DNA of 50,312 nucleotides from a bacterium (lineage in GTDB: Bacteria > Planctomycetota > Planctomycetia > Pirellulales > Pirellulaceae), in contig JANSWS010000010.1 in NCBI GenBank assembly GCA_024743355.1, positions 1 through 50,312 on the forward strand. The letters run 5' to 3'. The position numbers were made by a program, and so were the translations under genes. The first letter of the stretch is position 1, and every line of letters begins with the position of its first letter. This document shows positions 36,231-36,455 of the stretch, piece by piece. The notes beneath the pieces are model-generated. The model searched no databases and had not been told where the DNA came from. It saw only the letters and a program-made list of their open reading frames with translations.

Positions 36231-36240
36231 GCTAACGCCT
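36231..36240 (+). repeat. 10-bp direct repeat, left (target duplication)
   Basis: GCTAACGCCT directly abuts the left inverted repeat of the 205-bp element. It is identical to the sequence at 36446-36455 that abuts the right end, as expected of a target-site duplication. Confidence 0.7.
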
Positions 36241-36445
36241 CTTGTCTTTACCCACTTCTCGAGAGTCATGCGAGCAAAAATCCAATCAAAACTCGTGCTC
36301 GTGCTCCGTCCGTAGGACAGTGCTCGTGCTCGTGCTCGTGCTCGTGCTCGTGCTCGTGCTCGTGCTCGTAATCGGGGCCGCAGTACATCGATTACGATTA
36401 CGAGCACGAGCACGATTACGGAATAAAAATGTGGGTAAAGACAAG
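36241..36445. mobile_element. 205-bp MITE-like element with hexamer array
   Basis: Terminal inverted repeats are perfect over 15 bp: CTTGTCTTTACCCAC (36241-36255) and GTGGGTAAAGACAAG (36431-36445). Direct repeats of 10 bp flank both ends. There is no gene inside. The interior holds a hexamer array and a long hairpin: GTGCTCGTGCTCGTAATCG within 36354-36374 pairs with its complement within 36395-36415 over 21 bp. The structure is that of a non-autonomous transposon inserted in a REP-like repeat. No transposase gene is in the window, so an element elsewhere would have to supply it. Confidence 0.65.
36295..36373 (+). repeat. GTGCTC tandem hexamer array
   Basis: GTGCTC occurs twice at 36295-36306 and, after a 13-base interruption, eight times in a row at 36320-36367, followed by the variant GTAATC. 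On the other side of a 20-nt loop GATTAC/GAGCAC units run in complement. Copy number may vary between strains by slippage. Confidence 0.9.
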
Positions 36446-36455
36446 GCTAACGCCT
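36446..36455 (+). repeat. 10-bp direct repeat, right (target duplication)
   Basis: GCTAACGCCT adjacent to the right inverted repeat of the 205-bp element, identical to 36231-36240. Confidence 0.7.

Follow-up and report, generated by a model that had tools for sequence, protein, structure and literature searches.

The window, by which we mean the whole stretch of 50,312 nucleotides that was analysed, carries a 205-bp element that we interpret, with a probability of roughly 0.85, as a gene-less MITE moved in trans by a transposase of the IS4/IS50/Tn5 type, preferring REP palindromes as its target and carrying a deleted S23-like passenger. The evidence comes from the anatomy of the element, its copies and their target sites in the same genome, full-length insertion sequences (IS) with identical ends in other genera of the family, and the occurrence of the cargo outside the element.

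According to the initial annotation, the 15-bp inverted ends are perfect and an exact 10-bp duplication abuts them; both statements hold. The left TIR (CTTGTCTTTACCCAC, 36241–36255, forward strand) is 100% paired with the right TIR (36431–36445, reverse strand), and GCTAACGCCT stands at 36231–36240 and, as an exact match, at 36446–36455 (both forward strand), with 0 bases between duplication and ends. The arrangement is, as claimed, unlikely by chance, about 1e-8 such cases being expected in 50 kb (an estimate, 50,312 × 300 × 4^-25). At up to two mismatches the TIR has no other occurrence in the window, and one more match appears at three mismatches. The target is a REP-type palindrome, with a left part (AACCGCGGCTAACGCCT, 36224–36240, forward strand) that has 1/17 mismatch to the REP and a right part (GGCGGCTGAT, 36456–36465, forward strand); GGCTAACGCCTGGCGGCTGAT occurs once in the window with 0 expected. 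Between the TIRs lie, all on the forward strand, an A-end subterminal segment of the TTCTTGACAGTCACGCGAGCAAAAAAGCCAATCAAAACTC type that is conserved in the alignment of copies (36256–36294), two GTGCTC units (36295–36306), a spacer that can form a mini-hairpin between the hexamer tracts (C-GTCC-GTA-GGAC-A, 36307–36319; one of the 35 distinct spacers scored below), eight GTGCTC units forming a direct-repeat family (36320–36367), the hairpin partner of this array (GTAATC, a 15-nt linker and the arm GATTAC GATTAC GAGCAC GAGCAC GATTAC, 36368–36420), and a B-end subterminal segment that is also conserved in the copies (GAATAAAAAT, 36421–36430). The 2 + 8 units agree with the earlier count. The hairpin reported with them is present, with a stem that is somewhat longer than the 21 bp given and less perfect: the best arms (36343–36374 and 36389–36420) are 32 nt long and 88% complementary.

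No reading frame had been seen inside the element, and this is true in the relevant sense: six ORFs of 40–75 aa overlap the stretch, of which five cross the hexamers and yield low-complexity peptides and the sixth merely touches the right duplication. The element is thus short, lacks a transposase ORF, and has TIRs with an abutting target duplication, as a MITE does. Its fold as single-stranded DNA reaches −59 kcal/mol against a shuffle mean of −27.9 kcal/mol (z = −10.6, 0/200 shuffles as good); a strong fold is expected of any element with long inverted arms. Two genes converge on it, one for a BNR-repeat (sialidase-like) protein upstream (34512–35990, forward strand) and one of the histidine phosphatase family downstream (36527–37264, reverse strand). 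Beside the element, at 36052–36147, there is a GGTTCTACTGCGTTTGAC...-type repeat that is 79–85% similar to parts of contigs C301, C351, and C681 and that, by this similarity, is another dispersed intergenic repeat of the same genome.

We searched the window's own genome (G000, 8.31 Mb in 823 contigs) for further copies. The 205-bp element as query gave 97 local matches, many to hexamers only; copies were counted by their end sequences, which gave 20, of which 16 are two-ended (C193, C370, C50, C600, C743, C136, C59, C490, C449, C679, C681, C173, C609 with two, C504, and C154) and four one-ended (C301, C88, C355, and C70). The complete copies measured are mostly 155–209 bp long; the C490 copy, at 370 bp, seems to owe its length to a further repeat inserted into it. 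The inserted stretch of about 200 bp in this copy (locus L021, 1501–1870) resembles, by eye, a stretch beside the C609 copy (L002), as if a third repeat were nested there. Both end segments are conserved between copies, and the hexamer tracts vary in number and letters (GTGCTC, GTACTC, TTACTC, and GGGTCC). The initial annotation had proposed looking for many copies with common ends, different flanks, and duplications of their own; the 20 copies do differ in their outer flanks, and, judged from these sequences, the window element belongs to a real MITE family.

The REP-type palindrome AACCGCGGCTAACGCCGNCCGGCTGAT (pattern AACCGCGGCTAACGCCKNHCGGCTGAT) has 23 contiguous matches at up to three mismatches in the same genome, with 0 for the reversed control. 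It is the left flank in 13 of the 20 copies (six in one orientation, seven in the other), while a 14th copy, on C154, has a weak REP match in its left flank (6/20 mismatched). At the same thresholds the loci retrieved from this genome, copies included, match at 18 of 133,846 positions. Most copies (13/20) therefore sit inside REP palindromes at the same point, as expected of a REP-targeting insertion sequence. A 10-bp duplication at up to two mismatches flanks 11 of the 16 two-ended copies (ten with a 1-base shift allowed, plus C609b), the chance of such a duplication being estimated at ∼0.001 per copy. Abutting duplications are perfect in C193, C136, and C679; C370 has one of 9 bp with one mismatch, and among the 16 two-ended copies compared none was found at C490, C449, C173, and C154. 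In several loci the flanks are inverted, not direct, palindrome halves (L093/L004 on C154, L005 on C173, L066 in genome G010, L241 in G034, and L242 in G022), as if insertion had occurred at the exact centre or an inversion had followed. The search for empty sites suggested earlier succeeded in part: unoccupied REPs exist in the genome, a few of them beside copies, but relatives offered no aligned empty allele, the longer matches to the neighbouring genes within the genus being only ∼66–69% identical.

To find relatives of the ends, we scanned 149 genomes of the family with the pattern CTTGTCWTTACCCAC at up to one mismatch. It occurs in 89 of them, mostly at one or two sites, as does the reversed control in some; a clear excess was observed in several genera (G030: 14 + 29; G126: 22 + 13; G154: 10 + 17; G061: 5 + 7; control: 0–2). 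The 35 sites in G126 are mostly of the variant CTGGTCATTACCCAC, on both strands and unpaired by list, and may be a repeat of their own or a short related element. Exact CTTGTCTTTACCCAC end pairs 1614–1619 bp apart were found three times in G170 and once in G113, which are two other genera of the family. The four IS of ∼1.6 kb so delimited are flanked by duplications of their own (GGCGTGAGCC, 10 bp and perfect; GGTTCACGCC/GGCTCACGCC, one mismatch; GGCGCTAGC, 9 bp; GCTTCCAGC, 9 bp), and each contains one ORF of 457–466 aa. The three IS proteins scanned match NF033590 IS4_3 (E = 7e-81 to 3e-90) and the IS4/Tn5 N-terminal model NF049926, and one G170 protein matches the Tn5 transposase (1mm8/1muh, E = 9e-34) across the DTT, DR.D, and Y..RW.IEE.HK..K.G blocks. 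A homologue in G022, with ends that differ by two letters, has the Tnp_DNA_bind (PF14706) and Tn5 dimerisation (PF02281) domains, and the exact TIR adjoins the C-terminal codons of the same transposase at the contig end in three G061 and two G060 fragments. The G170 end CTTGTCTTTACCCACAAGT agrees at 12 of 19 positions, counted by eye, with the Tn5 outer end; the Tn5 duplication is 9 bp.

The transposase type, which had been left unclear, is thereby resolved as IS4-family, IS50/Tn5-type for the autonomous elements, and the identity of the ends, the duplications, the REP targeting, and the insertion in both orientations are evident at the level of sequence. The autonomous element with the same ends and a transposase, proposed earlier as a check, exists in other genera (G170 and G113) and was not found in the window's own genome; the MITE interpretation is supported by this element together with the 20 copies and their own duplications. 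We infer that a transposase of the IS4/IS50 type also moved the copies in the window's genome. The IS50-like transposase has 0 matches in G000, where an assembly of 823 contigs may miss a repeated IS, and matches in two of the 14 genomes of the same genus (G011 and G012). Among 44 TIR sites of the window's genome none face each other at a distance of 0.8–3 kb; the TIR-like site on C368, the one site examined with its genes, sits within a gene. The three DDE_Tnp_1 genes of this genome were considered as partners and rejected, none having a TIR nearby at up to three mismatches. Because neither the element nor its genome yielded a transposase of the Tn5 type, the window element is a non-autonomous derivative and not an IS. 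The copies are probably orphaned, given no match to this transposase in their own genome, and, since they have also diverged, they are probably relics.

Ends of this kind are also found on MITEs with different interiors in G030 (177–242 bp), G113 (174 bp), G178 (299 bp), and G154 (about 320 bp). Two of the five G030 MITEs have a perfect duplication (GCTTCTCATC and GGTTGAAACC); among the G154 elements, in which duplications only were checked, L252 has one of 9 bp with one mismatch and L250 has none. In a genome of the window's genus, L066 (G010:C26) carries a GTACTC-type cargo between CTTAGGTTTACCCACAT ends that themselves lie within a longer inverted repeat; it is a sister MITE with concertedly changed hexamers. 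We rebuilt the empty sites of 12 elements (the window copy and 11 end-to-end TIR pairs) and scored the position of the duplication relative to the tip of the palindrome. An internal near-match in L275 was set aside, L279, which has no credible duplication (6/10 mismatched), entered the scoring with 10 bp assumed, and G022 and G034 (neither with a direct duplication) and the other copies of the window's genome were left out. In eight of the 12 elements the midpoint of the duplication lies no more than 0.5 base from the tip of a stem scoring at least 7, and this centring is matched by at most 12 of 500 shuffles in only five of the 12. The window's own REP, with a tip score of 4.5, is matched by 109 of 500 shuffles and does not stand out. 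Since five of 12 elements beat the shuffles and the window site is unremarkable, palindrome-tip targeting is a likely tendency and not a proven rule.

The initial annotation had taken the cargo to be slippage-prone and structured. It is more than that: the hexamer module forms a repeat family of its own, related to S23/four-helix-bundle elements. The hexamer-spacer-hexamer module (GAGCACCN{7,11}TGAGCACGAGCAC) is present in 17 of 397 genomes of the class (control 0), 12 in the window's family (the window's genome included) and five in one other family; only GAGCAC was scanned for, which leaves a score of zero for genomes with GAGTAC such as G006. In G006 and G010 most units are GAGTAC. Named carriers include Pirellula MAGs, the MAG KLAP7, and Roseimaritima sediminicola. 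In G004, G006, G013, and G024 the module has other outer sequences and lacks the MITE ends, and on this evidence it is a separate dispersed repeat, independent of those ends.

The spacers of the module form mini-hairpins, although spacer-internal pairing was not demanded by any search pattern. In 35 distinct spacers (the window's own and those among the matches listed of two pattern searches), 76 of 85 possible pairs are formed, against 27.8 ± 4.1 in shuffles (maximum 43 in 10,000), and 27 of the 35 are fully paired. We analysed covariation in the 17 distinct spacers of 9 nt, the other 18 being of other lengths; the shuffles used here ignore relatedness. In both inner pairs the two sides have changed. 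Three measures were each reached by 0 of 500 shuffles: the covariation score (0.520 vs. 0.264), the proportion of cells paired (92.2% vs. 78.4%), and the number of cells with change on both sides (12 vs. 4.4); slid versions of the spacers score 0.007–0.157. Two coarser measures on these 17 spacers did not exceed the shuffles, namely pairs with change on both sides (2 vs. 1.6, reached by 314 of 500 shuffles) and further pair types (2 vs. 4.0, reached by 500 of 500). The covariation in the hairpins argues for a selected single-strand structure of the module. A C.T mismatch under the mini-hairpin stem was dropped as evidence because its presence in 32 of 35 spacers arises partly by construction, the patterns requiring C and one of them also T; with the pattern requiring only C, T is present in 17 of 19.

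Long forms of the module point to the origin of the cargo. On C551 of the window's own genome (L322, 233–691), arms of the same kind flank an S23/four-helix-bundle gene of 152 aa, whose protein matches PF05635 (23S rRNA intervening-sequence protein) at E = 2e-19, over the cut-off. L305 matches both PF05635 and TIGR02436 over their cut-offs, a damaged gene on C36 (L292) is over the cut-off for TIGR02436 and just under it for PF05635, and R. sediminicola has two such genes between arms, one of them broken by a stop. The 3′ arm encodes a DYDNEHRCAEHEHE tail, and the hexamer-hairpin-hexamer form recurs in the 5′ arm, which precedes the ATG. Forms in which the central part of the gene is missing from between the arms were found by tblastn (L087 and L063) and by motif (L296 and L008); L083 and L078 resemble a shortened S23 gene by eye, had no tblastn match, and were not counted as such. 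The window cargo has the complementary, stem-forming ends of an S23/IVS element and no S23 ORF, and because the same arms flank a PF05635 gene in the long form, we read it as probably an internally deleted S23 (IVS-like) element. Among 104 distinct modules in the fetched loci, some of which are short, ten (in eight loci, L087 included) lie by most of an S23 gene, six (in five loci) by part of one, and 88 by none; with 88 of 104 modules having no S23 match nearby, the direction, gene loss or gene gain, is not proven. Outside the hexamer arms of L322 (C551), L323 (C36), L294, and L301 there are, in several cases, GTTCTGGC...GCCAGAAC-like letters. At the same S23 loci, long imperfect palindromes look attC-like by eye, a possible link to integron cassettes.

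These results bear on four other explanations. The unit could be a fixed inner segment, never transposed alone, of a larger REP/BIME-like mosaic repeat to which GCTAACGCCT also belongs. Such a mosaic would explain why 13 of 20 copies (weakly a 14th) occupy one and the same position in this REP, and another repeat does stand beside the window copy (36052–36147, similar to C301, C351, and C681). Copies are not, however, all flanked by the same GCTAACGCCT, the case that the initial annotation had named as pointing to a fixed part of a larger repeat: they lie in the REP in both orientations (six and seven copies) with different outer flanks, contiguous REPs exist without the element, and six of 20 copies are elsewhere (C370, C59, C449, C70, and two on C609). 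We therefore regard GCTAACGCCT as a preferred target, which does not establish a larger fixed repeat. Further evidence comes from the autonomous IS, which have these ends but duplications of their own at other sequences, and the two orientations and these IS already contradict a fixed unit, which we consider very improbable. A more serious candidate, doubtful though we find it, is that the hexamer/hairpin module is itself mobile, in the manner of REP/REPIN sequences and through Y1/RAYT or another single-strand enzyme, and that its nesting between Tn5-like ends is an accident. Sixteen further genomes in the 397-genome class sample contain the module, which stands without these ends in other outer sequences (G004, G006, G013, and G024) and has covarying mini-hairpins, and the window's genome has eight Y1_Tnp (RAYT/IS200-like) genes (L233–L240). 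Yet within up to 1.5 kb on each side (less at contig ends) all eight loci lack both a pair of consecutive exact hexamers and an exact REP core, for which reason Y1_Tnp/RAYT was rejected as the mover of the cargo, and the DDE-type duplications of the window copy and its sisters are at the TIRs, not at the hexamers.

The remaining two explanations assign the hexamers a function in protein or RNA. If they were coding, as the EHEHE/DYDY tail of a four-helix-bundle protein, the window copy would be a pseudogene fragment, and 9-nt spacers do keep the frame in full genes (for example in DYDNEHRCAEHEHE). Against this, the length (10, 11, or 13 nt) of 17 of the 35 spacers breaks the frame, yet 13 of those 17 pair completely, so that the shape of the spacer rather than a protein seems to have been kept; the arm preceding the ATG is built in the same way, and the ORFs of the window copy are only low-complexity ones. 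A coding role is accordingly quite unlikely. Slightly less so, though still unlikely, is a structured transcribed RNA (a terminator or sRNA) as the selected function, with transposition only as its means of spread. The strong fold (z = −10.6, computed as single-stranded DNA) and the position between two convergent genes agree with it, whereas the length and sequence of the array vary between copies and no Rfam family is reached at the gathering score, the two matches seen being far below it (mir-2300, 28.3 of 90 bits; IRES_L-myc, 15.6 of 60 bits).

We therefore favour the gene-less MITE moved in trans, for which the following course of events is proposed. The transposase would bind the end of ∼15–19 bp, CTTGTCTTTACCCAC, in trans and make a staggered cut of 9–10 bp, preferentially in REP-type palindromes and often at the stem-loop tip; a cut at the REP tip would give the GCTAACGCC(T/G) duplication. 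The passenger, two inverted hexamer arms with mini-hairpins, would have been caught between two Tn5-like ends and carried along, its hexamer tracts then expanding and contracting by slippage.

The system resembles the IS50/Tn5 group of the IS4 family in the Tn5-type transposase domains and hits of its autonomous relatives and in its short duplications; it differs in that the window element lacks a transposase, the duplication is mostly 10 bp, and REP palindromes are preferred. ISRm22, also of the IS4 family, has all nine of its copies in REPs of Sinorhizobium meliloti, and Tn5 is likewise cited there for comparison (Tobes and Pareja 2006, PMC1525189). Both are IS4-family elements targeting REPs, but ISRm22 is a full IS in a proteobacterium (PMC1525189), and here MITEs and IS of planctomycetes have other ends. 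BrickBuilt and MITE464/PgRS of Porphyromonas gingivalis are MITEs with a tandem repeat and with TIRs common to a full-length IS; they have repeats of 23 or 41 nt and IS5-type ends, and no hairpin-armed S23-type passenger was found in the available text of that source (PMC4596501). In the Coxiella 23S rRNA IVS a decay-prone S23 ORF lies between complementary ends that form a long stem (PMC4990558). The long planctomycete forms likewise have an S23/four-helix-bundle ORF between complementary arms, but these arms consist of hexamers with covarying mini-hairpins, and the window copy lacks the ORF and lies between BNR-repeat and phosphatase genes. REPs have been reported from Planctomycetes among the GTAG/CGTC-tagged REPs (PMC3733652); the likeness to the REP described here is that both occur in Planctomycetes and implies no family assignment, and the names Pirellula, Rhodopirellula, and Blastopirellula had no match in the main text of that source.

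From the available parts of these sources, MITEs with internal minisatellites and IS-shared TIRs (PMC4596501) and IS4-family IS in REPs (PMC1525189) were already known. The nesting and the origin of the cargo look new: neither a Tn5-type MITE with a hairpin-armed S23-like passenger nor covariation in such hexamer modules was found among the best title and abstract matches in the literature on planctomycete repeats, MITEs, REPs, and four-helix-bundle elements, in which subscription journals are thinly covered. A broader picture, tentative and less likely than not, is that planctomycetes harbour hairpin-armed S23/four-helix-bundle elements with a selected single-strand shape, that gene-less miniatures of these spread both alone and inside Tn5-like MITEs, and that the transposases choose REP tips by shape and not by sequence.

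The MITE family now has its transposase class, and one end sequence is shared, in several genera of a single planctomycete family, by full IS and by several MITEs whose interiors are unrelated. Because targets tend to be 9–10 bp at or near the tip of palindromes whose sequences differ between genomes, it can be tested directly whether a Tn5-type enzyme chooses its targets by shape, and the cargo connects the dispersed hexamer repeats of planctomycetes to the poorly understood S23/IVS elements.
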